In this document: piece after piece, positions 21,180 to 62,944 of the stretch
Position numbering within the stretch: position 1 is the stretch's first letter
How the letters are laid out: the number at the start of each line of letters is the position of its first letter
Source: Dichetophora obliterata
Lineage: Eukaryota > Arthropoda > Insecta > Diptera > Sciomyzidae
NCBI GenBank assembly: GCA_963920525.1
Contig: OY986435.1
Location: 170,945,127-171,009,126 of the forward strand
Direction: 5' to 3'
Length of the DNA stretch: 64,000 bases
Notes under the pieces: generated by a model
Seen by the model: only the letters and a program-made list of their open reading frames with translations
Told to the model about the DNA's origin: nothing
The model's database searches: none
Program-made: the position numbers and the translations under genes

Positions 21180-23936
21180 CACTCTGGTCGAAATCAGTGA
21201 TCTAGCGTAAGAAAATCAAAATTTTCGACGTTCAAAATCTACTAAAATTTGATTGCCAGCCGATAACTAACTGCTCATTTAGTAAATCGATAATTTCCAA
21301 ATTGATAAATTTGCTTTAATTGATCAACTGTGAGCTTTCAAACACAGCCTATGTTAAAACAGCTGTGACAAAAACATTTTGCCGCCTTTTTACATGTGTG
21401 CAGATTGTGCTGAAAAATTGTGAAGAATCTTATTCCTAAATTGTTTGTTTTGGTTTTTGTAATAGTTAAAGGTATGTAGTTAAAAAAAAAAGTGTTTCGT
21501 GACTTGTGCAATATATGTTATGGTAGAAAATTGTGGTAGAATTCAACAACATTGCTAACTCCTTTTTTGCGACCGAACTTGAACTTCTGTAAAGCAAAAC
21601 TTATTTCAGAGGTGTTTCGAGGTAAAGAGACTGTTGTTTTATGTTAATATGTTTTGGCTACTTTGTGAAATGTCTCACATCTGCTGCGTTGACTTGCGTC
21701 TTCTGACTCTGTTTTAATTTTTAGGCACCATGTCGGTCTCCAAACGCTCCCTTTTTTCAGTATGGTATGGTGAAAAAGACGCAAAAAAAAAAATTGTCAG
21801 CACTGATGGAGTATGTTTTTTCGAATGTTATTGAGAAAGCAAACTGCACTGAGGAGGAGTACAATTTAGTTATTAAACAAATGACAAATTTTTGCACAGG
21901 GGTGACTGCAAAGTGGCGAGCATGCCATAGGAATTGTAAACGGTTCGAGGATAAATACAAAGTTTGGTTGGACGAAGACTTAGTTCTTGTATGTTCTTCT
22001 GAAAATGCTCAAAAAGGAGCAGGTAGAAAACAAAAGGAAATTGCTGATTGCCACGCAAAATATCAGAACACCAAAGTTTCGAAACTTGTCGAAGGCAATA
22101 CATGCAATGAACTAATGACAGCGACTCGCGTCAGCTTATACAAAGCTGGAAAACGGAGTGCATCGCAAGTTATTTCAATGCTAGGCACTGATTCCGATGC
22201 GTCTTCAAAAATAAAAAGAAGTCTTGAATTAAACCAACAGCTCCCTATCAAGGATACGCCCGAGAAAGCGTTGGCTCTGTATATTGATGGAGGGTATACC
22301 AAAAATTCATATCAACTTATGCAATCTGGTGCAAAAGCTCGCAATAGCGATTGATATATACCCAACATACGATGTTATGCTAGCCGCCAAAAAGAGCTGT
22401 TATGCAGATGCAAAAAGAACCGAAGAGTGTTGTGCTGAAGTTTCCTTGCAAGAACTACTGGATCACACAGTTAAAAGAATTGTTGAAGCCCACCCGGAGG
22501 CATTCAGCCAAATATCTGTTGATGAAAAGAATTATGAACATCCAACTGTCATTTATAAATGGGGATGCGATGGGAGTTCGGGACACGCAACGTATCGGCA
22601 AAGATTTACCAATACTGAGCACAATATGGTAGATGAACATTTGTTTGCAATTTGTATTGTGCCACTACAAGTACAATGGCGTAGCAGCATACTCTGGAAA
22701 AATCCGCGGCCTTCTTCAACTCAGTATTGCAGACCTCTCAAAATAATGTTTGCAAAAGAGTCCGCAGATTTGATTCGTGCCGAGATTGAAAAAATTAAAT
22801 TACAAATTATAAAACTTGAGCCCACGCTTCTGAGCTGTTTTCAAGTTCAACACTACTTGCAGCTTAAAATGATTGATGGCAAAGTGTTTAGCGTAATTGC
22901 AGAGACTTCCTCGCAAACATGCGGAATTTGTAAGGCATCGCCGAAAATTCTGAATGACCTTGATCACATTATGAGCTTGCCGAGTAACGAAGATTTGCTT
23001 CAATTCGCACTGTCGACCTTGCATGCATGGATTCGCTGTTTCGAGTGTATATTACATGTAGGATATAGACTACCAATCAAAAAGTGGCAGGTCCGCGGCT
23101 TGGACAAGATAGTAATCAACCAAAGAAAAGCAGAGATCCAAGATAGATTTAGGGTTGAAATGGCATTATTGGTGGATATCCCAATGCAAGGTTCTGGCAA
23201 CACGAACAGTGGCAATACAGCTCGAAGTTTTTTTGAACACCATGAATTGTCTGCTCAAATAACCGGCGTAAATGTAAATCTAATTCAAAGACTAGGTGTG
23301 ATTTTACGCTCTATGGCCTCCGGATACGAGGTAAATATTTGCAGATTTCGTGAGTACGCCTTACAAACCGCAAAGATATTTGTAAATGAATATCCATGGT
23401 TCTACATGCCTAGCTCGGTTCATAAGATATTGATTCACGGAGCTGATATAATTGAATGTGTATCACTTCCTATTGGTATGATGTCGGAAGAGGCCTTGGA
23501 AGCTAGGAACAAAGATTTCAGAAATTTTCGACTGAAGCATACACGTAAAACTTCGCGCATAAATACAATGGAGGATCTTATGAACTCTTTATTAATTTCT
23601 TCAGATCCTTTAATACCAAGTTTATCCAAAAACCCGTCTCGTCATTCCAATAAAAACATTTTTTTGGATAGGGAGATGAAATATCTGCTTTTAGATGCTT
23701 CTAAAGTATCAGAAAACTCCGATTCAGACTGGAGCACTGACGCTGAATAATTTTATAATTAAAAAAAAATTAAAAAATTAATAAAAAAAAATTAAAAAAA
23801 ATTAAAAAAATTAAAAAAAATTAAAATTTAGTGCCTTATTAGGTTACTGTTCCAGAAAAATTATCATTTGGTAGAAAACTTTATTTTTTTAAGTTATTAA
23901 TTTTCTTACGCTAGATCAGGCAAATCGGCCACTGTG
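21180..23936 (+). mobile_element. Transib (RAG1-like) DNA transposon, complete ends
   Basis: The 2,757-bp element has a perfect 5-bp duplication CGCCG at 21,175-21,179 and 23,937-23,941. The left end reads CACTCTGGTCGAAATC, the right end (complement) CACAGTGGCCGATTTG; both continue into a shared TGATCTAGCGTAAGAAAAT block, giving an imperfect inverted repeat of ~37 bp. Transib elements are known for 5-bp GC-rich duplications and ends starting CACWRTG, the same heptamer used by RAG1/2. The right heptamer here is exactly the consensus recombination signal heptamer CACAGTG; the left differs at one position (CACTCTG has two changes). Its transposase gene has two frameshifts. Confidence 0.93.
21730..23750 (+). 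pseudogene. RAG1-like Transib transposase, two frameshifts
   Basis: Translation most likely starts at ATG 21,730 (MSVSKRSLFSVWYGEKD); an 11-A run at 21,783-21,793 has one base too many and shifts the frame. The frame then runs to 22,354, where a second one-base shift near 22,345 moves it to the frame ending at 23,750. Aligned to RAG1, the catalytic triad is present: Asp in WGCDGSSGH (22,569; RAG1 D600), Asp in MIDGK (22,875; D708) and Glu in EALEARNKD (23,499; E962). Zinc ligands CGIC (C727/C730) and HKILIH (H937/H942) are also kept. The core from 22,360 onward is uninterrupted for over 460 residues. It lacks the intron found in the 46.9 kb copy. The damage could be real or could be homopolymer assembly error. 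Confidence 0.9.
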
Positions 23937-38668: not shown

Positions 38669-40124
38669 ATGGAAGTTAACAAAATGTTTTTGCTTAAAAA
38701 TTTAATGCAGTGTACTCAAGCAGCTATTGAAGTGTTTTCTGATGAAAGCGACGATGAAGTTGTCCTGGGTAAGCAATAATAAGTTTCCATAGGTTTTTTC
38801 ATGTTTTTAATATATTACATAAATTAACAGGTCTCCTTGATTTATGTCAAAAGGCAGCCGATTTACCTGATAAAGAAAAAAGCAAGCGCCAATGGATAAA
38901 ACCTTGGAGGCTCGAACGCGACGAGGATGTTTCATTTGCCTTCTTAACAAAGAAGCTGCTGCATACAGATGAGCCTTCATATAACAATTATTTGAGGATG
39001 ACTTCAACGCAGTTCGACTTCTTACTAAACTTAATAAAGCCGGACATTGAGCGCACCAACACACAACTTAGGGATGCAATTCCTCCGGAGGAAAAATTAG
39101 CAATGACACTGAGGTTTCTTGCTAGTGGTATGTTTGTGAAGTGTGAATTAATTTTGCATTGCAATTCATTCTTTGTTTTTTAATAGGAGAGTCATATAAG
39201 AGTTTGAACTATCAAACAAAGTTGTCGACATCATTTATATGCCAGGTGGTTCCTGAAGTGTGCACAGCTTTATACACTAGATTGAAAGGTCAATATGTAA
39301 AGGTATGAACGTTTTTTCATTACTTATGTTATAGATTATAATTGATTTTAATTTTCATTTAACATTTAAAGATGCCAAGCAATCCTGCGGAGTGGGAAGG
39401 AGTTGCTAAAGAATTTGCGTTGAAGTGGCAATTTCCGAACTGTCTCGGTGCTCTTGATGGCAAGCACATTACTTTTCGTCCACCGCATAATTCTGGTGCT
39501 TACTACCATAATTACAAAGGTACCGACAGCATAATTTTACTTGCGTTGGTCGACGCAAATTGCAAATTTATCTTTGTGGACATTGGTTGCAATGGGCGGT
39601 CAAATGACGCTGGCGTGCTCTTGCAAAGTCCTTTAAGAAATCTTTTAGACGAAGAAAAAGGCTTGCCATCTAATGCAATAGTCGGTAGAGGACGCAATCT
39701 TCCCTATGTTATAGTTTCAGATGATGCTTTTCCATTGCAAAGGCACATTCTGAAACCATATCCGTACCACACAAAAAGCAATGAAAAGAAAATTTTTAAC
39801 ATGAGGCTATCCCGTGCCAGACACGTTGTAGAGCATGCGTTCGGAATTCTTTCCAATAGGTTTCGCGTGTTCTTAGCACCAATTAATGTCCGCGTTGAAA
39901 CAGTGGAAAAAATAACATTTGCATGCGTGGCACTTCACAACTTCCTTATTGAAAATGACTTAAATTACACGGCAAGTTATGCAAGGGAAGAAATATCAAC
40001 TAATAACACCACGGCAGAAGGACTTTATAATCCACGGAAAGGTGAAGCAGAGAACATAAGGCAGCAATTCATGCAATACTTCAACGAAGAAGGCAAACTC
40101 AACTGGCAAGCAGCTAAAATATAA
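38669..40124 (+). CDS. PIF/Harbinger DDE transposase, four exons, apparently intact
   Basis: Predicted exons are 38,669-38,768, 38,831-39,127, 39,187-39,302 and 39,372-40,124, with GT-AG introns of 59-69 bp. The joined frame is 422 codons with no stop. Exon 2 carries the family's helix-turn-helix start (MTSTQFDFLLNLIKPDI ... AIPPEEKLAMTLRFLASG) and exon 3 continues ESYKSLNYQ. Catalytic motifs are in exon 4: ALDGKHITF (first Asp), NGRSNDAGVL (second Asp) and HVVEHAFGILSNRFRVF (Glu). Length is typical for HARBI1/ALP1-like transposases (350-450 residues). The enzyme would cut and paste the element, normally helped by the MADF partner, which is damaged here. The exon boundaries are my reading of the sequence. 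Confidence 0.9.
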
Positions 40125-43019: not shown

Positions 43020-46000
43020 GTAAGTAAAACTAATTGTAAAAATAATTGTAAGTAAAACTGAGACCAGCATTTTTAGAGGGAATTGAATGTAGATACTAAT
43101 ACTTATATAGTAGAAAATCTTTAGTTATTTTCGAGTTATTAAATATTATATTCACTGATAAAGCAATTTTACATTCTCATGTCAATATATTTTATTATAT
43201 TTTGTTTGGACGTATTTACCGGTGGTACCTCAATAATCATTAAAATAGCTGGCATAAACCAATATTCATTCAAGCCATGGCAGAGCATTTCGTTTTTAGT
43301 GTTGATGACAATTCGTATCAGACAAACTCACAACAGATAATTACAGTTTATTTATACTCTAAATCAAAACAAAATATTCTTGCAGTCGCAATTAATTGTT
43401 TTTGATTAAATACAAGCAAATATATATCATTTCTCTATTTCTCTATTGTTTAAAATGGCATTTCGAAATCGTTTGAACTTTTATGTTTGTGATACAGTTG
43501 TTTCTCTGAGGCAAAGTGTTAACATAAGCGGAGATGAAAATGAAGCTTAATGTTATATAGCTATTCGCAGGCGTGAATCTTTTGAAAGACCACCTCTTGC
43601 CATTACAGATCTCTCTCGTCTATGTTTCAATTGTAACTTAGATCCAGCCTGTGTGCTGTTAAATGTATTAACGCAAACTAGAAGTGGAATTTGTTTATTT
43701 TGTGGCGCCGATGTGGATATTCGTAGAATTTCGTTAAAATGCAGGGTTAACGTTTTTGTTGCACGTGATCAGGCGCGTACCCAAAAAAAAAATTTCAAAG
43801 ATGGTTTTTAGTTTTTTTTTTTTTAGATTTATTCCAATTTTTTTTTATATAATATATAATAACGGTTTATATATTTTTTTTTGGGCTAATGCAATTAAAA
43901 TTTTTTTCTGTGGTCACTTCCACATCCCTGTGAACATTTACAAGAGCTAACCCATGGAGCCTTTATTCTCCAGTTGTACTTCTCATGCATGTTTTGGGTC
44001 TTCGAAGCGACGCAAACGAGGGTTTGCTTGAAGCGACTGAAACCTGCAAAGTTGCACCAATCTTCAGGAATCGGCTTGTTGATGGATATATAACGTATAT
44101 ATGTAATGTTACAGGTCGATTTGTCTGTTTCAAGTAGTGCCTGCAAATATGGGGTACAAAATATTGATCAAAATCAATTTATGCACTGGAAAAATCATCA
44201 CGTTTTTAAATTCAACACAATGCCTTTAATATCAATGCATGATTTTTCATAAAAAATTTTAAAAAATGTTTCAAGCATTTTTTAACCAATTTTTAACTAT
44301 CTATCTATCTATCTTCTATCTATATATATAAAATAGGATGTGTGTATGTATGTAACGTATGGACTCCAAAACGGCTGGGCCGATTTTGATGAAATTTTCA
44401 GGTAATGATCATCTTGGTACGGTGGGTAACATAGGCTATATTTGGACCCGATAGGTGGCGCTGGGGTGGACTTATATCGAAAATTTGAATTTATGGACCA
44501 ATTTAACTGAAATTCAGAATGTATGTTTGTTTGATCATAAGAAAATAATTTGTGTATAAATGGACCCGAAAGGTGGCGCTGGGGTGGACTTATATCGAAA
44601 ATTTGAATTTATGGACCAATTTAACTGAAATTCAGAATGTATGTTTGTTTGATCATAAGAAAATAATTTGTGTATAAATGGACACGGTAGGTGGCGCTGG
44701 GGTGGACTTATTTCGAAAATTCGATGGCGTGAAAAATATATAAATACTTTTAATTTTATTTTATAACGAGGGGAGTAGCGAAGCACACCGGGTTCAGCTA
44801 GTATGTTATAAAAAATTTGCATTAAACATATTTTGTCAAAGTAGGAACAAATTGTTTTCAATATTTCGCCCATTTCACATTACAGTGTGATATCAGCTGC
44901 ACTGAACACCTCCGATTTGGCTCAAATTTTGTACTTAGACTAGTTTATTGTTTAGAAAACCAAATCCGGAGTTTGAGATTTCATTCATTCGCGAGATTTC
45001 ATAGCCGTGTGAATGCCAAAATAGGGTCTATTTTGAGACAACGTAGCCCAGTCAAATTAAATGCAATTTTCGTAAAAAGGGTATCATTTGAAATTTTATT
45101 TAGAGGGAAAAATGCTAAACTTTTTTAAAATTTGCAGTTACACGAACCATTATTAATTTTAAAGTTTAATGCCATGCCAGCCGCCGCACAGTCATGCTAG
45201 ACGGAAAAAAGTCGAAATCTTATTTCTGAATTTTGAATATGTAGAACTCTGAAGAACTGTCCACTGATATCAGGAAAAAAATTTTACTTACCTCCGCTTT
45301 CTACAAAAAATACTAAAATTGTTGAATGTTGACCCAAAAAGTGATATTTTTGAAATTTTAGTTCATGAGTTTTGTAGTTAAATTTAATTATATGTTTAAA
45401 ATATTTATCAACATTCAAAATAGTTGAAAATTGGCAGGCGTCATAAATAAGATATGATCTTTTGAAATAAAATAAATTTAGTAACGTATCTTATAAAATG
45501 TAGGCGCTATAAAACAGTATTTAAGGATAAATATGCATAAAAACGGAAAATTTGGTAAAATATTTTGGAAAATAAAAAAAGGACTGCCTCAGAATTGCAA
45601 TTTTTTTTTATTTAATAATTATTATGTCTTCTTTAAGCCCTGGGAGTGCCAAGGTGCGCAACTTTTTTTTTGAATTTTTTGTTCGAATGTATATGATGGT
45701 CTTAAAAATGGCTGTAAAAACCGTGCTCTGACCGTTTTGTATGAAAAAAGTCGAATTTGAGGTCAATGAGAATGTATGATGAGCTTAAAATATTTTCAAC
45801 ACATCACAAAATATTTTTACATAAAAAAAAAAAAATTTCAATACATACAAAATAAAAAAAAAAAAATTCTTAAACGAAGGTTTTTTTCTTAGTTAAAACA
45901 GAAAATTTGGTAAAACCTTTTTGAAAATAAAAAAAATGACTGCCTCAGATTTCCAAAATTTTTTTTTGTTTAATCAATATTATATGCACTTTAAGCTATA

Positions 46001-49000
46001 AGAGTGCCGAGGTGCGCAAATGTATGGTTGTCTTGTTATTTAACCTGTTTGATGAACCTAAAAATGCTATTTATTTTAATTGAAAAACCAAGTTATGACC
46101 GTTTTTTTCAAATAACGGCTGTAATCGTGACGACAGATTGACAGGCAGTCATTGCTAAATCTACTTAGGAGGTGATGCTGATCAAAAATATATATACTTT
46201 TCTACACCTGCCACGCCTATTTTTTGGCATTTCAGACAGAAAAAATATATTTCCCTTACAAAGTACACGTTTCGGTATTAAAATATGTATACATGAAATA
46301 AATAAAAATATATAATATATATCAATATAAAAATATATATATTACGAAAAGAAAACACTGCTCAAACTTAATGACAATGAATTAAAAAATATTAAAAAAA
46401 TATGTCTTGCTAATATTATATGGGAGTAACATGCAATTTCTTTACATTATATTCTTTGCTGTTTGTTCTTCTTGTTTTTATTTAAATGTATTTTTCTAAC
46501 TCGCTGATTTTTTATGCAATTCTTCAATTCAAAAAATGGGTAAAATCGAGAAAGTAAACGTGGTGGTATAAAAAAATATATATTAAGAAAACTATACACT
46601 CTGCTCAAACTGACATGAAAATCAATTAAAAATTATTAAAAAAATATATTTTGCAATAATTACATGAGGGAGCTGTGGGCTCTTATTGTTTTTTTTTTTT
46701 AAATGCATTTTTCTAACTCGCTCATTTTATGTACAGTTATTTGCTTTGTGAGAAAAAATAACAATAACGAAAAGCAAGTGAAAACGAAGTCAAAGTTGAT
46801 AAAAGTATTAACAAAAATAGTTAAATAATTAAAAGTTACTGAAGTGATTTGAAGATTAAGAAAATTAAAAATGACAGATTTTACTGGAGGTTTATTTAAT
46901 AAAACATTCATTGCTTTAAAAAAGTGGCTTTAAAAATATTTTTCGTAGGAATAGTTATTTCAATATCCCGTGTGGAGTTTTTTGAGTTATGGTGCGATCA
47001 ACAAAGTGATGACTTTTACGATACGCTCATAAATTTTGTTTCTTCAAATGAAATTTTATCTGATGAAATTGTTAATGAGATGAAGGTGAACATTCGTTTT
47101 TATGCAAATAAAATTCAACAAAAGTGGAAGTCAGCTGGTCGCCGTAAGGATAGGTATAAATGCAGCTATTGTGCTTACTACACTATGCGGCAAATTTTTA
47201 AGTTTCAAAATTTTGAAGTTCTACTACACAGCAAGACTGTTTTGAAATTTGTCATATAGTGTAAAGATAATATTTTTGTCTTCCTGTAAGAATAAATTGA
47301 AAATACTTTTCAGATTTTTGATGAAGAACTCAGATTGGTTACAAATGGAAGATATTGTATTAGTTCAACAGAAAAGTGATCAAGCCTCTGGTCAAAACGT
47401 CTTAGAAGAGCTCCCTACTACGTCTAAAGGCTCGCTCGGTAGGCCATCAAAACTTTTTGCAGATTTCGGAGAACGTTCAAAGCAAAATAAAGTACGTGAT
47501 TTGTTGAAATCAAGAACTGTGAATGAGCTCTCATATGCTGCTCAAATGTCTAAACGGGCAAGTGGACTCGGTACTGTTGCAGATATTATAAAATCTGTTT
47601 GTGAATCTCCCGAAGAGGCGAAAAAAATTAAAAAATTAAAATATAGTACAGAGGCACAACACACTTACACCAATGTGGAGGCGCTAGCCATTTACATTGA
47701 CAGTAGGTTAACTTCCTATACCTACAACAATCTTCGAAAAAGAGCATTACGAGCGAACCATAATTTATATCCTTCTCTTTATAAACTTGCAAAAGCAAAG
47801 AAAGACTGTTTTCCTTCAGAAAATTCAATCACTGTGACTGAAAGTAGTGCTTCCATAAATATGCAAGACATTGTCAATCACACTACGGAAAGGCTGTTAA
47901 ATGTGATACAGTCGGTTATTGCTGGCAATATTGAAAATTTTAGTACAATGACTTTAATTTGTAAATGGGGTGGTGATGGTAGTTGTGGTCATAGTACTTA
48001 TAAGCAAAGATTTAACGAAGAGGATAGCACTGATGAGTATTTATTTGTAATGTCATTTGTTCCTATACAGTTGCGGCCAACTGAAAATTCAAATGAAGTG
48101 GTATGGCAAAATAAACATCCATCGTCCACTCGGCTTTGTAGACCAATCAAATTTGTATTCGCTAAAGAAACCGAAAAAATAATAAAAGAAGAATTTGGAA
48201 ATATTCGTCATCAAATTGAAAGTTTGAAAGATGCTGACTTTTACATATCATCCAAATCATTAAAAATTAAATTCAATTTTTTTTGCACCATGATCGACGG
48301 TAAGATAGCCAATCATCTTTCGTCTCACAAGTCAACACAGTCGTGTTATATATGTGGTGCCAAGACAACTGAAATGAATGAAATCCAAAACCTCAAAGAA
48401 CCTCGACCAGAATTGTATTCTTATGGCTTATCATCTCTACATGCTTGGATCAAAACGCTTGACTGTATCTTACATATAGGGTACAGGCTAGATGTAAAAA
48501 AATGGGCAATCCGCGATATCAATGATAAGTTATCTGTCGAGAATAGAAAAAAGCAAATTCAACTTCGTTTTAAAAAAGAACTTGGTCTAGTTATAGATAA
48601 GCCCAAGCCAGGCTATGGCTCTTCAAACGATGGGAACACTGCTCGACGATTTTTTAAAAGCCATGAAAAAAGCTCTTCTATAACTGGAGTAGACGAGAAG
48701 CTTATAAAAAGATTTTATATAATTTTAAGCTGTATCTCCTCTGGTTATAATATAGATATTTCTTCATTTGAAATTTATATTAATGAGACTAAGGCATTAT
48801 ATATTCAACTTTATAGCTGGTATTTTATGCCGGTAACAGTTCATAAAATTCTCTGCCATGCTAAAGATATAGTGCAACAATGCATCGTTGGAATAGGGCA
48901 ATTATCTGAAGAGGCACAAGAGGCTCGTAACAAAGACTGTAGACGTTTTCGTTTGACAAACACACGTAAAAGCTCAAGAGTCAATACAAATACGGATTTA

Positions 49001-52000
49001 TTGAATATGCTTCTCATCAGTTCTGATCCTTTGGTTGATTCCTACCGAGAAAAGCCTCTAACTAATGTTAGAAAATTGCATCCGGACGTATTAGTTTTTC
49101 TTATTCCTGCTGGTGAATCAAAAATAACCGCCAGACGACAATCTAGTTTTCCTCTTGTTAATGATGATTCAACTAGTGATGAATTATAATTGATGATAAA
49201 GGTCCGATCCTGAGGGCGATTCTTGGTCGTCGAATTAAAGATGAACATCCAATTCTTAGTAATGTTAATATAAGAAAAAATAAATAAATTCTTCAATTTA
49301 GAAAGTAAATTTCGCAAATCACATACTATACGTCTATTCGTAATTTTGTAATCGTACTTTTTAAATTGTAAATTGTATGGCAGCTGCCACGCCCACTTGT
49401 CCAATCACGCTGAAATTTTTTTTACTTTTTTGAAGACGTCTATGGCTAATTTTGTTATCATAGCTTATCTCATTCCTAAGATATAATGCAAAATGTGTTT
49501 AAGTTGTATGGCAGCTGCCATGCCCACTTGTCCAATCGCGTTGAAATTTTTTTAACTTTTTTCAAATCTTATATTAGACATCAATGGCTAATTTTGTTAT
49601 CATAGCTTATCTCATTCCTAAGATATAGTGCAAAATGTGTTTAAGTTGTATGGCAGCTGCCACGCCCACTTGTCCAAAATTTCTGAAATACTTTTTTTTG
49701 TACTTTCTTGTACCATAAACATCGAAAACTACCAACAAATAATATTTTCCATCTAACTTGTACCAATCGCATCACTGTGCGCCGGTTGCTAAATAAATTT
49801 TTTTTTTCATTTTCAATATTTTCATTTTTTTTACGTTCCATTTTCTTTCCAAAGATATGAAATGAAAGTGTGTTCTTTAAGGCGTTTAAGTTATGGCGTA
49901 AAAACGTTTTCAACGAATTCAACTAGCGTTGATATTTATTGTAAAAAAACTACAATACAAAGAAATTTGCAAAATTTTTTACGTAAATAAAACAAAAATG
50001 TTTTTTTAAAGTTTATTTTTACAAAGTACAGGTTGTCCTTTGCAGCCGGTGGGTGTCAAGCAAGATATTTTGGTCCCAATTTATCGGTAAAAGAAAATCA
50101 AAGTGCATATTAATAAGATTACGACAACCTTAACTAGTATTATAAGGTTTGGCTACAATTTTTCCTCGCTATGGGGATAAAAAGCGCTGAAAATTACAGC
50201 ATTTTTCGAAAAGTCCCGCTAAATTTTTTCTATTGGGCCAAACTTAATAATTCTAGTAAAGGTTGTTGCTACAAGTGCCCTTATTAAAATGCACTTTGAT
50301 TTCTTTTTTCGATAATTTGGGACCAAAATATATATACGCCCGCCAAAAAGGACTGCTTTTTTTATGCCACCTATCGAGAAGAAGATGCAATTAAAAACAA
50401 ACAAAAAAATTCAGGTTGGAGTTTTTTTATATTATTTACACTGAATTAATATTATAAATATTATTTATTATATTAATAAGGCTCGAGACATGCTTGAAAA
50501 GGCACACGAGCTAAATCTCCTCCAGACCCTAGTTGAAATAGAGAATCTGCATAAATTACGATTACAATACGATTTCCCGATTGTAGACCTTGAGTTCTTG
50601 AGAAATCTAACAATTGGTGTTTATCAAATTCGGCTGACTCCATCCCATGTACAGGATAAATCGTAGCGGGATAAAACGGAAGAGATACAAGTAGAAGTGT
50701 TAGAAGATTGTGATAATATTCCACGACCTGGATTAATCAGGGTTAGGATTTTCTCTAGATTTCGTAACTCAGCAAAGCATCAGTTACGGATAGGTTAGGT
50801 TAGGTTAAACCGGATGCCTTCATGAAGGCTCACATAGACCAATTCAGGTCCTTAGTGGTACCGGTAGCGAACAAAAGTAACGTTTGTGTTTGTTCAAAAG
50901 TCTTTAAAGATTTGCCGTTAGGTTAAACCGGATGCCTTCATGAAGGCTCACATAAACCAATTCAGGTCCTTAGTGTTACCGGTAGCGAACAAAAGGAACC
51001 TTTGTGTTTGTTCAAAAGTCTTTAAAGATTTGCGTTGAGTTTGCAAACCTTAGGAGGGATTCTAGAGACACCCTGGCTACATCTTTAAGCGACGGGAATG
51101 TCGATGAGCCTAGGTATTTTAGTCTTGATCTAAGTAGGGCGGGGCATGTGCATAGAAGGTGCTCCAGGGTCTCCACTGTGCCCGGTTCTTTGCACTTCCT
51201 GCAGTGGTCATCCGTGGTGATGCCAAGCTTCCTCGCGTAGGCTGCCGTCATGCAATGACCAGTGAGCATGCCCACTAGTGTCCTGCAATCTTTGCGCGGG
51301 CGTGCCAAGATGAACAGAGTTCGTTTTTCGCATTGTGCATTGCACATGATTTTCGAGATTTTGCACGATGTCGTATCTCTCCATCTACGATTCACTGCTA
51401 GTGTGGCTCTTTTTTCGAGGTTCCTGTACAACTCTTGTAGCGGAGTAAGTACATGTTCTGCAAGTTCTGATTCCAGCCCGGCGCCTTCCTTTGCTAAACC
51501 ATCTGCCATCTCGTTTCCCTCAATGCCCTGGTCGCAGGGACCCAGTAGATGCGCACTTTTTTCGAAGCGCATAGTGCATCTAGTGCATCTCTGCCAGCCA
51601 AAACACTTTTGGACTTGATGCCAGCGGAGCGCAAGGATTTGATCGCCGCTTGACTGTCAACGAAAATGTTGATGTTAAAGTGTTGTGTGTCCATGCTGAG
51701 GGCTATCTCAGCAGCCTTCCTTATGGCAAATATTTCCGCCTGGAAGATACTGCAGTGGTTCGGCAGTTTATATGGCTGCCTTATATTAGGCTCTGCGCAA
51801 TATACCGCCGCACCTACCCCCGTAGGCATTTTGGAGCCGTCGGTAAATATGTTGACCGCCTGCTGTGCTTGTTCTATACCTTTGCACCAGTCCTTTGGTC
51901 CCAGAAGAGTTCGTACTTTGGAATTGACTATCGTGCGAGGCACCATGTAGTCCGTGCTTCTAGGTAGATCTTTTCCGATTGTACAATGTCCAAAATTTTG

Positions 52001-55000
52001 AATGTGCATGTTGCCTGCTGCCGTAAGGCGTTGTGCCGTTTTTCCGGCTATTAGTTTTGCGTGTATGTCCAGGGGGTCCATACTTAGAATCGTTTCAAGC
52101 GCTTTAGTTGGAGTTGACTTCAGTGCCCCCGTGATGCATAGCGCTGCCTGCCGCTGAGTTTTCTCCAAGTGCCTGAGGAATGTTGATCTGTTCACAGCCG
52201 GTCACTACACAATAATCCCGTAGAGTAGAATAGGACGCACTACCGTTACATAGATCCAGTGCATCAGAAAGGGTGAGAGACCCCAAGTACTGCCTAGCAT
52301 CTTTTTGGATGTGTATAGTGCAATGGTGGATTTCTTCACCCTTTCTTCCACGTTGGTTTTCCATGACAGCTTGCTGTCCAGGACGACTCCTAGATATTTT
52401 GTGTGAGTTTTCGGTATGAGACGTATATCGTTCTATTTCGGTGGTATCCACTGTGGTATCTTGTACATTTTCGTGAACAGAACCAGATCCGTTTTCTCTG
52501 CATTAATACTAAGACCGACAGAATTTGACCATCTAAGTACATCTTTGAGTGTGCTCTCCATTATGGAGCTTACTGTTGATAGACATTTCCCTACTATAAT
52601 AATGCTTATGTCGCCTGCATAGGCAGTTATCCACGGGGCTCTTCCTGCGAACTTTTCGAGTAGTTCATTAACTACAAGATTCCATAGTAGTGGCGAGAGG
52701 ACCCCTCCCTGGGGTGTCCCACTGCGAGCTTCCCTTACCATGGATTTCGTGCCCCACTCAGCCCGCACCTTTCTGCAGCTTAGCAACTTGTCTAACCATA
52801 GGTTTATTGCCGGTGGTGCCCCTATTACACGTAATCCACTAAGGATTGCGGTGGTTGATACATTGTTGAATGCATCTGAGATATCTAGAAACGCCCCGAG
52901 TGCGTATTCCTTGTGGTGGAAGGCTTTTTCTATGGTTACTACTAGGGAATGTAGTGCCGTTTCAACCGATTTCCCTTTCGTGTATGCGTGCTGGTTGGTT
53001 GATAACTGGATTGAATTGTTTCTTAGGTGCAAGTCAATCAGTTTCTCGAGCGTTTTGAGTACAAAGGAGGTCAGACTTATTGGCCTGTAGTCTCTCGGAC
53101 AGGGATGGCTGCTCTTACCTGCCTTCGGTAAGAATACAACCCTCGCTGTCCTCCAAGCCACAGGTACATAGTTTAGCCTGATGCATCCGTTAAATATATT
53201 CTTCAGCCATGGCACGACTCGCGATTCAGCCGTTTGCAACATGGCAGGAATTATACCGTCTGGTCTCGGAGATTTGTATCCCGAGAACGAGTTTATAGCC
53301 CATACGATTCCGTCCGACGTTATTAAGTCGTGTGGAACCTGTAGCGGGGTTGTCCTGTGCCCTCGTATTGTAGCAGTGCTTGGAGCTTCAGTACAGCCAG
53401 GAAAATGCACCTTTAAAAGCACCTCGAGGGATTCCTGACTGCTCTCCGTCCACTGGCCATTGTCTTTGCGTAGCTGGCTCTGAATGGAGGGCTGCTTTGA
53501 GAGTAGCTTCCTCAGCCTTGCTGTGTCCGCAGTTTTTTTCTATGTTTGAGCAGAAGTTCTTCCATGAGTGTCTTTTTGCTCTGCATACGTTTGTTTTAAA
53601 AAGTTTGAGCCTACATTTGTATTCCCCCCAAAATTTCCTCTTGGTCAGCTATTTTAGCTAGTTTAAAGAAATCTTTTAGGTCGCGTCTTTCCTCTGTAAG
53701 ATTCGGACTCCACCATGGTGGTCTGATCTTACGCTTTGTTCGCGTGGGCTTACAAGAGGCATGATAGGCCTTGAGAAGATGGGACGAGAGAATCTTCAGG
53801 GACCTTTCAATGCCCTCTTCCATATTAATTCAGTTACGGATAGCTTATAGATCAATTAATGACGAACTGGAAGATGAGGAAGAAAGTGATAATAGTTTTA
53901 TTGACGGATATTACTGTAGGTGCAAATCAGGTGCAAGAACTCGTGGTGCGTGTTATATGGTTTTTAGGTTATGCGAGACATGTACAAAACATTCGATATC
54001 CCCAACGAATTTGACGCATAATCTATACTATTATATAAAAGGAGACTCACAAAATTTGATCCAGAATAAGCTCGGTAACCGCTGAACCGATTTTGATAAT
54101 TCTTTTTTTATTCGATTCCTATGATAATATATAGTTATAGCTTACCAAGGTTTTCGAAAAATGTATTCTTTAATTATTGCAAAATCACGCATTTTATTTG
54201 ATGCCTACATTCAACCAGCAGCACAATATAACAGCAAACAAAGCTTTCCTCTCCTTGTCGAGAGAGCTTCTCTCAATATAACACGACAGCCATGTTGTGT
54301 AGTTAAGCTGAATTCACTGATAACCTTCAGCATGTTTTTGCGTGATTTAAAGTAATGTTAATCAAGTTCAGAGCGTGCAGAAATTTTTCTCTCTGAGCGA
54401 AAACTTTATATGAAAAAACTTTCAAAACATGCTGAAGGTGATCAGTGAATCCAGCTTTACTTTCAGGGAGATTCTTGCTTTCATACAGTGTTAATTAATT
54501 TTCTTTGTTAATGTTTTGAGGGGAGTTGCCAGAATTTAGTTATCTGCATTAATTATGTTTTTCAACCTTGCCAGTCAGCTTTTCCCCTTTTGAAATTGTG
54601 TTAGTTTATCTATACGAATATATAAAAGCGTTGTGATACTGCACGGATGTTTGACAAGTACGCAACAATCACTGAACCGATTAACACGATGTAGGTATCA
54701 AACGATTTGTTATTCCAACTTTATCGTAATATGCTATGTTAGATTTGCCACGTCTACTTTTCATGCCCACTTTTTGCAAAAAAGCTTGGAGTAAAGCAAA
54801 GCGCACTAGGTTTAAGCTCAATTGAGCTGAAATTATGGCATTTTATTGTTTCGAGTATGAGATGGTTGAAGTGAAAAAATGTTGCCACACCCCCATTACC
54901 GCCCAGAATTAATCAAAAATGTTATACTTCGAAGGGTTTTGGTTGTATTAGACTAAAATTTGATAATTTAGTTCATACGGCTACTTTCAGCAGCTGTACT

Positions 55001-61000: not shown

Positions 61001-62944
61001 AAAAAAATTCATTGTCTAGGGGAGGCGCTTGCAAGCAGCTGGCCCCCCTGCGGACGCCCATGGACATATATATTCATATAGATGTATATTGGTCATAAGA
61101 TATCCATTTATACTCACATTCGTGAAAATTAGTACAAATACGTCACAAAACATATTACAAAATATATAGCAATGAGAATGTAAAATTGCTTTATCAGTGA
61201 ATAAATTATTGAATAACTCAAAAACTGTTCATTATTATTATCAATATTTTGTGCCCATTTAAAAGGCATTATTCAGAATGATTACAACCACAACATATCA
61301 AAAATTCTGACAATTTAACTGGGAGACAATTTTCATACATTTTGTGCGGGGTGAATTTTGTGAATTTGTTTTTTTTTTCAGTCCGCAAATGAACTTATTA
61401 AGCCAACAGATTACACAACAAATTTCGATTATTTGACTAAAAATTTAAAAACCGGCATTATTAGCCAACGTCCTCTGAATCATGTGTTGCAGTCTAAAGA
61501 AAACCCGTTCCTAACGGAAACAGACTATTACGAGCCCAAAATATCAATTCGAGAAAAACCCATCAGTGTTGTTGTAGATGAGGGTGCAGTGCAGAAGAAG
61601 GCCACAATTGGTCGCATTACACACACACATAATCATCGGATGAAAGTGGGATTTGATGCGGGTACTGACAAATTGGAAACAATTGATTCGCCAAGTAGCA
61701 CTGGCAATAAAGGCGCACCTGCTGGCGATGCTCAAAAGCTGAATAAATCGACGACAGGCATTGTCAGTCGTAATGTTGACCATCGTAAAATTCAATCAGA
61801 CACAAAAGACATCGAAGATGATTCCGGCAACAATTTCGTTTCAGCACGTAAATCTATAATTTTGCCCACATCGCTGCCAACGCAGAGAACAACGTTGCCG
61901 AATGTCTATAGCAATGCGGGTGGAAATGGATTGAAGTTGGATGATGTGGAGTTTCTGCATGCAGATGGGGTGGTTCGTCGTCGCCATCGTCGTGGACGCA
62001 AAAATCGGTAAGTAATTGAATAAAGCTTAGTGATTTGGAAAAAGTTTGCTTGGCAAGCCCTTAAAGTTAAAGAAAAGTTTATTGAAGTGCAAAAATTGGC
62101 AAAATTTTACAATTGTTAAGACTACCAAAAAAAATAAGAATGAATTTCTGAAATGCAAAAGCACTCAACTCTTATACATGTAGCCTGATTTTTCTATATA
62201 AATTGCGTGCATTTTTGTTTTGTTAAATTTTAAAACATTTCCTTTACAGTCGCAGTTCGGAAAAGCAACGCTCCTCCGATTATTCCCTAAAGCTACAGCA
62301 TTTAAGGGACGAACTGAATCGTCCAGTACGCACTGCTGACGATATGATTGCTTTGCGCAATCGTTACAGTTCTGCTCGAAAATTCGCCAATGGAAAACCA
62401 TTCAGCAATTATAACGCCACAATAAAATATGAAATGAAAAACATTAAACAAGACCATGACCATCGAATAAAATTTAAAAAAACAGCAAAAAATTTAAATT
62501 ATTCATCCGAAAGCGCCGATGAGCTAGAAATGGTAACGAAGCGGAAGTACACGATGGATGCCATGAACGCTGAAGTACAGCATTCATCGCTTGAATTGGA
62601 ATTAGAAAATGAAGAGTAAGTTATGGTTTGATGTTAGAAATGCTCGCACACTTTTCTTTGAGTGTATATTCATTGGTACATCAACAAATACATATGCATA
62701 TTTGTAGAAATTTCAAACATTTGGAGCATCACCATCGAATGGCACGAGCAGTAACAGCAAAAAAAGAAAGAGTCTGGGACTATGGCGTTATTCCATTCGA
62801 AATTGATGGCAACTTCAGTGGATTACATAAAGCTCTGTTTAAGCAGGCGATGAGGCATTGGGAAAATTTTACATGCATCAAATTTGTGGAGCGCGACCCA
62901 GAGATACATCCAAATTATATTGTGTTCACAGTTCGCGGTTGTGG
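42730..62944 (+). CDS. tok: Tolloid/BMP1-family astacin metalloprotease, tolkin-like (partial, spliced)
   Basis: Exons recognised are 42,730-43,019, 61,382-62,007, 62,250-62,615 and 62,708-62,944. Their phases chain without a break (0, 2, 2, then 2 at the window-side donor). Tolloids are secreted zinc proteases that cleave Sog/chordin and other matrix substrates to free BMP ligands; domains run signal peptide, propeptide, astacin, then CUB and EGF repeats. Here one sees most of the propeptide and the first ~65 residues of the astacin domain. The zinc site HExxHxxGxxH and the CUB/EGF repeats lie beyond the window. No signal-peptide exon was found, so the 5' end is missing or unrecognised. The tok rather than tld call rests on [13 protein letters not shown] and [13 protein letters not shown] am moderately sure. 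Confidence 0.78.
43020..43456 (+). other. Start of the 18.4 kb tok intron, no other feature
   Basis: AT-rich intron DNA. The whole interval 43,020-61,381 appears to be a single intron filled with the elements listed below. Confidence 0.5.
43457..43770 (+). pseudogene. Cysteine-rich amino-terminal relic of a DDE transposon protein
   Basis: From [20 protein letters not shown] at 43,457 there is one stop, then [28 protein letters not shown] and [14 protein letters not shown]. This paired-CxxC layout with LNVLTQT...CLFC resembles the amino terminus of an insect transposon family whose carboxy terminus has a GVYQIRL ... RVRIxSR ... [12 protein letters not shown] region. That carboxy terminus is present at 50.5-54.0 kb, so this may be the start of the same dismembered element. 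The family identity is from memory of motif style. Confidence 0.45.
43771..44318. other. Unassigned stretch
   Basis: A minus frame at 44,146-43,895 (83 residues, [19 protein letters not shown]) looks mildly protein-like but matches nothing I know. The rest is AT-rich. Confidence 0.35.
44319..44801 (+). mobile_element. Short Helitron-like element with internal 118-bp tandem repeats
   Basis: Starts A|TCTATATATATAAAATAGG and ends CGGGTTCAGCTAG|T, i.e. TC...CTAG between A and T with no duplication. The first 80 bases hold the ACGGCTGGGCCGATTTTGAT block typical of many insect non-autonomous elements of this kind. GGTGGCGCTGGGGTGGACTT recurs at 44,454, 44,572 and 44,690, giving a 118-bp repeat of about 2.3 units. 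Confidence 0.65.
45530..46730. repeat. Direct duplications in the 5' region of the Transib element
   Basis: A ~130-base block (GAAAATTTGGTAAAA ... GACTGCCTCAGA ... GTGCC(A/G)AGGTGCGCAA) occurs at about 45,545-45,665 and 45,900-46,025. A second block (ACTGCTCAAACT ... ATTTTTCTAACTCGCT) occurs at about 46,325-46,510 and 46,560-46,730. They are non-coding and may be subterminal binding sites or duplications. Confidence 0.65.
46871..49189 (+). CDS. RAG1-like Transib transposase, three exons, 699 residues, apparently intact
   Basis: Predicted exons are 46,871-46,889, 46,949-47,153 and 47,314-49,189 (GT-AG introns of 59 and 160 bp); they total exactly 700 codons with no internal stop. The start MTDFTGG joins [12 protein letters not shown], which aligns with the start of the 21.7 kb copy. 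RAG1-type catalytic core: Asp296 in [11 protein letters not shown], Asp403 in MIDGK, Glu611 in [15 protein letters not shown], corresponding to RAG1 D600, D708 and E962. The first two are 107 residues apart (108 in RAG1). Zinc ligands CYIC after MIDGK and HKILCH before the Glu match RAG1 C727/C730 and H937/H942. The [20 protein letters not shown] block aligns with RAG1 [20 protein letters not shown]. There is no RING finger, and no RAG2-like frame is present. It would excise and insert the element through hairpin intermediates. Confidence 0.93.
49375..49700. repeat. Subterminal tandem repeat at the 3' end of the Transib element
   Basis: GTATGGCAGCTGCCACGCCC (one variant base) starts at 49,375, 49,506 and 49,648. 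Each is followed by ACTTGTCCAA and, in the first two, by TTGTTATCATAGCTTATCTC. The third copy is truncated before the terminal repeat. Each unit contains the perfect palindrome GGCAGCTGCC. Confidence 0.85.
50030..50355. mobile_element. Palindromic MITE
   Basis: TATTTTGGTCCCAA(T) near 50,070 pairs with TTGGGACCAAAATA near 50,320; AAATCAAAGTGCAT pairs with ATGCACTTTGATTT; AAGGTT(G/T)G words pair near the centre. It shares flank words with the palindrome at 27.6 kb. Confidence 0.55.
50481..50793 (+). pseudogene. DDE transposase carboxy-terminal relic, part 1
   Basis: The + frame after an AG acceptor reads [33 protein letters not shown], a stop, then [27 protein letters not shown] ... LIRVRIxSR is a conserved block of an insect transposon family with a SWIM-like zinc motif at the end. 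The frame is cut by the LINE at 50,794 and resumes at 53,844. Confidence 0.6.
50794..53829 (-). mobile_element. 5'-truncated LINE with reverse transcriptase and RNase H
   Basis: A perfect 14-bp target duplication, TCAGTTACGGATAG, lies at 50,780-50,793 and 53,830-53,843. The element reads on minus: linker ([13 protein letters not shown]) at 53,720, reverse transcriptase, then RNase H, then a cysteine-rich carboxy end. It is 5'-truncated (no endonuclease) and has no long poly(A); its 3' end carries a 118-bp direct duplication at 50,801-50,918 / 50,919-51,036. RT plus RNase H order suggests the I/LOA/R1 group. Confidence 0.92.
51012..53823 (-). pseudogene. LINE ORF2 remnant (RT, RNase H, Cys-rich end)
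   Basis: Frame 53,422-52,433 holds the [68 protein letters not shown], and AYAGDISII where the catalytic YADD has become YAGD. Frame 52,195-51,494 holds RNase [41 protein letters not shown]. Frame 51,572-51,012 adds [17 protein letters not shown] (RNase H end) and a [20 protein letters not shown] zinc block. Frameshifts between the three and the YAGD change show it is inactive, though decay is mild. Confidence 0.9.
53844..54021 (+). pseudogene. DDE transposase carboxy-terminal relic, part 2 (SWIM-like motif)
   Basis: Continues 50,481-50,793 across the [24 protein letters not shown], then [17 protein letters not shown] and, one frame over, [18 protein letters not shown]. CxCKSGARTxG-C is the SWIM-like signature; a small deletion has removed the CxH part. 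The next Helitron-like element interrupts it at 54,021; about 37 further bases in frame ([13 protein letters not shown] then stop) follow at 56,519. Confidence 0.6.
54022..56518 (+). mobile_element. Non-autonomous Helitron-like element (same family as 11,075-14,009)
   Basis: Starts A|TCTATACTATTATATAAAAG and ends GCGGGTATTTGCTAG|T. Start and end are shared with the 11.1-14.0 kb copy: GGAGACTCAC near the start, and at least 24 identical bases (AGGCGAAGCAGCGGGTATTT then GCTAG) at the end. Removing it rejoins the interrupted DDE relic at an A-T dinucleotide with no duplication. A second start-like sequence, TCTATACGAATATATAAAAG, lies at 54,613, with GACAACGTCTGCCGGGCAAT near 55,080, so a smaller relative may be nested. 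No Rep/helicase frame. Confidence 0.65.
56519..56659. other. Tail of the DDE relic, then intron DNA
   Basis: See the DDE relic entries; nothing else seen. Confidence 0.4.
58368..58445 (+). other. tRNA-like segment with exact B box
   Basis: GGCCGTAGCCTACTGG resembles a tRNA D-arm/A box; GTGGTTCAAACCCC contains a perfect B box (GGTTCAAACCC). A T8-plus run follows at 58,446. The spacing of the two boxes (about 35 bases) is tRNA-like, but the acceptor stem does not pair well. It may be a SINE head or tRNA relic. Confidence 0.42.
58942..59990 (-). pseudogene. hAT transposase remnant
   Basis: Minus-strand blocks in order: [17 protein letters not shown] (about 59,870), [18 protein letters not shown] and [20 protein letters not shown] (59,822-59,550), an apparent intron containing a hairpin, [18 protein letters not shown] (about 59,390), then the dimerisation domain [27 protein letters not shown] at 59,163-58,942. 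[20 protein letters not shown] is the hAT signature of the ZMYM-like/TTF-type group. Frameshifts between the blocks show it is not functional. Confidence 0.8.
59439..59514. repeat. Hairpin with 30-bp stem in the hAT element
   Basis: GTTTACACTAGCTTCACTCA at 59,439 pairs with its complement ending at 59,514 (one mismatch over 30). It falls in what looks like an intron of the hAT gene. Confidence 0.75.
60437..60629. mobile_element. Small MITE with TTA duplication
   Basis: GGCCGTGTTCAT at 60,437 and ATGAACACGGCC ending at 60,629 are perfect inverted termini, flanked by TTA at both sides. Inner arms (CGCGATTGCT / AGCAATCGCG) also pair. The 3-bp TTA target fits PIF/Harbinger. The right terminus is repeated just downstream (AACACGGCCTTACA at 60,651). 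Confidence 0.72.
61071..61381. other. End of the large tok intron
   Basis: Intron sequence ending in a pyrimidine tract and CAG acceptor at 61,381. No other feature. Confidence 0.6.
61382..62007 (+). CDS. tok: tok-like propeptide exon 2
   Basis: Follows a T-rich acceptor (TTTTTTTTTCAG|TCC) and ends at AATCG|GTAAGT. It starts [18 protein letters not shown] and is open throughout its 626 bases. It is low-complexity and charged, as expected of a fast-evolving insect tolloid propeptide, and finishes in a strongly basic run ([10 protein letters not shown]) that could be a proprotein-convertase site. Codon use and GC content are clearly higher than in the flanking intron. Confidence 0.78.
62250..62615 (+). 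CDS. tok: tok-like propeptide exon 3
   Basis: Acceptor TCCTTTACAG|T completes the arginine codon of the previous exon. The frame runs [20 protein letters not shown] through an acidic tail (LELELENEE) to GAAGA|GTAAGT. The flanking introns are 242 and 92 bp. No known domain was recognised; it is linker between the basic run and the astacin domain. Confidence 0.78.
62708..62944 (+). CDS. tok: tok-like exon with propeptide cleavage site and astacin start
   Basis: Acceptor TTTGTAG|A; donor [30 protein letters not shown] contains the expected maturation site, RMAR|AVT, just before the astacin domain. Then [33 protein letters not shown] and [11 protein letters not shown] follow, all standard astacin amino-terminal motifs, with the cysteine of the first disulphide (TCIKF). 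The exon stops at the CG just before the CCSFVG block of the family. Confidence 0.92.

Follow-up and report, generated by a model that had tools for sequence, protein, structure and literature searches.

A slightly damaged copy of a young RAG1-like Transib family in the fly Dichetophora obliterata

A stretch of 64,000 nucleotides from the sciomyzid fly Dichetophora obliterata (assembly GCA_963920525.1, contig OY986435.1, positions 170,945,127 to 171,009,126; hereafter the window) contains at positions 45187-49779 an element of 4,593 bp, flanked by the pentamer CGCCG at 45182-45186 and 49780-49784. An initial annotation described it as an apparently intact RAG1-like (Transib) transposon, with heptamers of the type found in recombination signal sequences (RSS) at its ends. 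Read outward, these ends begin with CACAGTC (5') and CACAGTG (3'), and they are separated from their A tracts by 11 and 24 bp, respectively. The question is whether this is indeed an intact transposon with naturally unequal ends. In the present work, we examine it by comparison with the other copies in the same genome. We will show that the window copy is very probably a slightly damaged, neutrally decaying member of a young multi-copy cut-and-paste family of the Transib (RAG1-like, DDE) type.

The source assembly (1.31 Gb, 76 contigs) was searched with the element DNA, which gave at least 95 matches. In this search for near-identical copies, which the initial annotation had called for, 36 matching stretches were retrieved, and 27 of them have both ends, that is, the window copy and 26 others. 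Stretches without a complete end pair (L036-L044) were excluded from the end-pair, frame and substitution counts. For the latter two counts, L034, which lacks the coding region owing to an internal deletion, and L035, which is 14% diverged, were also left out. The remaining 25 copies include L028 and L033, both with large coding deletions.

At the 5' end, the distance from heptamer to A tract was counted by script as 23 bp in 26 of the 27 two-ended copies (in L023 it is really 25), and at the 3' end it is 24 bp in all 27. The 11/24 spacing occurs only in the window copy, and unequal spacers are thus not a trait of the family. The gap begins at position 7 of the heptamer, inside the 5' inverted repeat, where the 26 other copies have 12 additional bases (14 in L023). 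Since these 12 bp are absent only here, the CACAGTC heptamer of the window copy is a deletion junction. The 5' heptamer is CACAGTG in 23 copies (24 with L023), while CACTGTG, CACAGTA and the CACAGTC of the window copy occur once each; the 3' heptamer is CACAGTG in 27 of 27. The letters of the two ends are hence as first annotated, but the 5' heptamer is not native. The deletion is bordered by imperfect copies of a five-base motif, GATGC and CATGC, which suggests slippage between them. From the window alone, a natural asymmetry of the 12/23 type, as in Transib5, could be proposed for the family, as the two ends share CACAGTSATGC followed by TAGAYGGAAAA at positions 12 and 25. This candidate was rejected because the copies in the same genome show the short 5' spacing to be a private deletion.

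Such asymmetry does exist elsewhere. According to PMC8355894, unequal ends with 12 and 23 ± 1 bp are found in Drosophila melanogaster Transib5 and in Anopheles gambiae Transib2 and N1-N3, while other Transibs have symmetric spacers of 20-22 bp; PMC8289069 speaks of symmetric ends in "most" Transib families. The window copy resembles the unequal elements in having a heptamer and an A-rich block at unequal spacing. In those elements, however, the asymmetry is described as a trait of the element (PMC8355894), whereas here it is a private deletion within a near-symmetric family. With a measured spacing of 23/24, the family belongs among the symmetric Transibs, and the likeness of the window copy to the unequal ones is accidental.

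We have also considered that the window copy is mobile as it stands, with 11/24 ends that work as natural RSS-like ends. The loss of 12 bp, about one helical turn, would then have turned a 23/24 arrangement into a 12/23-like one, after which the copy transposed. In favour of this are the CGCCG duplication, which is perfect although it borders the shortened end, and the reported unequal Transibs mentioned above. However, a deletion occurring after insertion would leave an identical duplication, and the last base of the heptamer is altered as well. At least 29 other genome matches start within 11 bases of the element's 5' end, and among the matches listed none begins at element position 1: 27 begin at position 7, one at position 4 and one at position 11. 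The deletion is also absent from all 28 other 5' ends that were compared (the 26 two-ended copies, L037 and L040). We therefore regard a mobile short-ended copy as improbable, and we think that mobility with the shortened end is impaired. In the preferred reading, that of a damaged family member, the copy would have inserted at CGCCG and lost the 12 bp of its 5' end since then or at its last move.

That the element is correctly delimited follows from its flanks and its relatives. The CGCCG duplication claimed on both sides was confirmed letter for letter. When 71 heptamer-like starts and 77 heptamer-like ends in the window were paired at spacings of 300-9000 bp, a matching 5-bp repeat was found for three pairs only: the present element, a second Transib described below, and one further pair whose ends mismatch at 7 of 12 bases. 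The end motif CACAGTSATGC by itself is within chance, with 2 matches in the window (at most one mismatch) against 0.98 expected, and 27 of 100 shuffles reaching 2, although both real matches have zero mismatches. The assignment is carried by the identity of the two flanks and, decisively, by the copies elsewhere in the genome.

We now turn our attention to the transposase gene. The three-exon frame of 700 codons (699 residues and a stop) in the initial annotation exists. The codon count is weak evidence in itself, because 63 GT/AG combinations leave a frame open within the scanned ranges. The junction of exons 2 and 3 is backed by homologues that read through it (KDRFLVKYKSWL in P0010, KDRFLKNNSQWI in P0011, and others), and of the 23 copies that possess the four splice sites, 21 have GT/AG throughout, L015 and L022 deviating at one donor each. 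In the predicted product, both the D-D-E set (D296, D403, E611) and the CxxC/HxxxxH set (C419, C422, H585, H590) are complete, such that all seven RAG1 residues named initially have counterparts, with the first two aspartates 107 residues apart. The three acidic residues align with D600, D708 and E962 of RAG1.

Comparison of sequence and fold supports a RAG1-like (Transib) transposase in a fly, as initially claimed: the core is a RAG1-core-like DDE transposase that is nearest a known Transib protein. The fold comparison is a re-examination of Foldseek's own matches and covers the families in that list. As the P element and Hermes are also in it, one could imagine that the core stems from another DDE superfamily (P element, hAT or Tc1) and that its likeness to RAG1 is generic. 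Both the sequence and the fold matches point the opposite way, the core being closer to no other DDE superfamily, and this origin is exceedingly improbable. A search of viral contigs with the transposase protein gave no match.

Two residues of the predicted product looked suspicious at first, as E458 and P601 are found in 120 of 120 homologues listed. D and G at these positions are, however, the majority residues of the family and also occur in L014, and E458D and P601G were therefore rejected as disabling changes of the window copy.

It is important to note where the frame ends. In the window copy it stops after ...STSDEL, at a stop supplied by 16 bp that are absent from 21 of the 24 other copies; two more are gapped here by a larger deletion, and L023 carries another insertion locally. 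In the family, the frame continues for 11 more codons (711 codons, 710 residues, as in L014), and the private insertion exchanges the last 12 of these residues for one leucine. Together with the 12-bp loss in the 5' inverted repeat, this altered C-terminus means that the element is not intact. Outside the coding region, the window copy also lacks 32, 20 and 11 bp that are present in 20 to 22 of the 24 others, and in the subterminal repeat region 13 of these 24 have 131 extra bases.

The private coding substitutions of the window copy amount to 14 replacements (in 13 codons) and 2 silent changes, to be compared with a neutral expectation of 3.15 : 1 from the observed spectrum. Pooled over the 25 copies, the private changes are 205 replacement, 78 silent and 24 nonsense. 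The 14 : 2 ratio fits neutral decay and nothing in it suggests selection, although with as few as 16 changes weak selection is possible.

These numbers bear on another scenario, in which the window copy can no longer move but supplies transposase, or is in the course of being domesticated, with a broken end and a kept frame that serves other copies in trans. RAG1 itself is a domesticated relative, and the frame of the window copy is indeed open although its end is damaged, open frames being found in only two of the 25 copies. On the other hand, the 14 : 2 ratio does not indicate the purifying selection expected of a domesticated frame, and the C-terminus is altered. The copies are also very alike, leaving little time for selection to show. 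Moreover, L014 (C4:36683722-36688487) has CACAGTG at both ends, a CGGCG duplication and an uninterrupted frame of 710 residues, so that a special source is unnecessary. It keeps all near-invariant residues except for the two family-wide departures at 458 and 601. The idea that the window frame is the only intact one was likewise dropped, as counting to the family stop shows L014 to be open too. A role in trans or a domestication is even less probable than a mobile short end.

Some observations weigh against simple decay of the window copy. Its private changes miss all 73 near-invariant columns, and an uninterrupted frame in only 2 of the 25 copies (the window copy and L014) could hint at constraint. 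The initial annotation had named disabling substitutions, revealed by other copies, as a test of its claim. The 12-bp deletion, the changed C-terminus and the 14 private replacements are indeed seen, and the test thus goes partly against the claim. These changes may disable the copy, although the enzyme need not be dead, as no private change falls in a near-invariant column. Nevertheless, a decaying family member whose frame was altered at its end by 16 additional bp would account for the observations, and the open frame would most simply be a chance survival.

The family as a whole has the features of a Transib, namely a GC-rich 5-bp duplication, inverted repeats that start with CAC in a CACAGTG-like heptamer, and a single transposase gene. 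The 5-bp flanks are identical in 24 of the 27 copies by script, and in 25 if L023, in which 2 inserted bp displace the end, is added by eye; in L025 and L028 they differ by one base. The 24 identical duplications are CGACG (7), CGTCG (5), CGCCG (4), CGGCG (2), TGCCG (2) and four singles. With 18 of 24 fitting CGNCG, the target preference is sharp; the G+C content of the window is 33%. According to PMC8289069, the duplicated 5 bp are biased towards GC for ProtoRAG, Transib and RAG alike, and the target site named for a RAG strand-transfer complex in PMC11844651, CGCCG, consists of the same five bases as the duplication in the window.

The divergence from the column majority is 0.30-1.21% in 26 copies, with L035 at 14%. 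Among the 25 compared copies, 734 variants are private and 86 shared, and the tree is star-like. The low divergence, the predominance of private variants and the shape of the tree together indicate a recent burst from one or a few master copies, in which the family would have spread to at least 27 sites. The recent activity proposed initially is thus borne out for the family. We also note two short copies, L034 (1,407 bp) and L033 (2,860 bp), with complete ends, CGTCG duplications and a deleted interior, which by their structure are non-autonomous derivatives.

For HzTransib and RAG1, the reaction proceeds by a dimer that pairs the ends and nicks at the heptamer. The flanks are closed as hairpins, and the liberated ends are joined, with a stagger of 5 bp, to a GC-rich target that is bent. 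By analogy with HzTransib, we infer that the family transposase would bind both near-symmetric ends (CACAGTG and an A-rich block at 23 or 24 bp), after which nicking at the heptamer and hairpin formation on the flanks would release the element. Insertion would then take place at CGNCG and duplicate 5 bp, in the manner reported for HzTransib. This element from Helicoverpa zea (PDB: 6pqn, 6pqr, 6pqu, 6pqx, 6pqy, 6pr5) is a close known system but a different family. Its solved chain has 497 residues, compared to 699 modelled for the window copy (710 in the family), and the duplication of the published copy is GCTCG (PMC1852546) instead of CGNCG.

The absence of a RAG2 partner, also claimed initially, agrees with our results. 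There is no second long frame in the element, and a Pfam search at E ≤ 0.1 found no RAG2 match in nine other open reading frames (ORFs) in or across it (at least 60 residues, within 44900-50100, exon 3 frame aside), a scope that would miss a gene split into numerous small exons. RAGL/ProtoRAG elements, in contrast, are described as having convergent RAG1L and RAG2L genes (PMC7204232), a pair not found here. The system also differs from RAG1 and V(D)J recombination in that the family ends are near-symmetric and that the protein is a transposase, not an immune-gene recombinase. The RSS nonamer ACAAAAACC was not found at the expected place in the element ends.

The features of the element are collected in Table 1. 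Upstream of the transposase gene, imperfect direct duplications are found at 45538-46037 (units of 72-81 nt, about 356 bp apart) and at 46326-46741 (units of 52-59 nt, 217-244 bp apart).

Table 1. Features of the Transib element in the window (HzTransib residue numbers after PMC6941560).
Feature	Position	Strand	Basis
Target-site duplication CGCCG, left	45182..45186	.	sequence
Transib element, 4,593 bp	45187..49779	+	ends, duplications, genome copies
5' terminal inverted repeat, 12 bp absent between 45192/45193 relative to 26 other two-ended copies	45187..45210	+	
Exon 1, 19 nt, start codon	46871..46889	+	splice sites across copies
Exon 2	46949..47153	+	homologues, splice sites across copies
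Exon 3, catalytic core to stop	47314..49189	+	sequence and fold comparison
Codon of D296, aligns with HzTransib D126	47975..47977	+	
Codon of D403, aligns with HzTransib D225	48296..48298	+	
Codon of E611, aligns with HzTransib E436	48920..48922	+	
Private 16-bp insertion supplying early stop	49185..49200	+	
Subterminal direct repeats, three copies, spacing 131-142 bp	49369..49716	+	
3' terminal inverted repeat, heptamer CACAGTG, 24 bp to A tract	49745..49779	-	
Target-site duplication CGCCG, right	49780..49784	.	sequence

The window holds other mobile elements as well. A second, different Transib of 2,757 bp lies at 21180-23936, also between CGCCG duplications. Its ends are near-symmetric (CACTCTG.../CACAGTG..., with TGATCTAGCGTAAGAAAAT common to both at equal offset), its frame is broken by a frameshift somewhere in 22233-22354, where two ORFs overlap, and it shares 41% identity with the first over 439 aligned positions. 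An ORF at 39363-40124 (+) has a DDE_Tnp_4 domain and is presumably PIF/Harbinger-like. Retroelement pieces in separate frames at 51012-53539 (-), with a reverse transcriptase at 52433-53539 and an RNase H at 51494-52201, are probably a broken non-LTR (long terminal repeat) element. Finally, an ORF at 61364-62011 gave 27 matches; the two with an organism name are from Sarcophaga bullata and Drosophila willistoni, in keeping with a fly.

The window copy is thus not pristine, but an ordinary member of its family. RAG1 relatives in flies have long been known, such as Drosophila Transib5 and the Anopheles Transibs (PMC8355894), and with the link of fly Transibs to RAG1 already established, the find is otherwise an ordinary one. 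What it adds is a young fly Transib family that sharply prefers CGNCG targets and whose heptamers match the RSS consensus exactly. Its copy set includes one complete-ended, full-frame copy (L014) and one natural 12-bp end deletion. These two copies offer a handle on how far an enzyme of the RAG1 type, working in the absence of RAG2, copes with end spacing altered by one helical turn. If the window copy did transpose with its shortened end, improbable as this is, it would exemplify how symmetric transposon ends can naturally acquire, in one step and without RAG2, the unequal spacing that V(D)J recombination requires.
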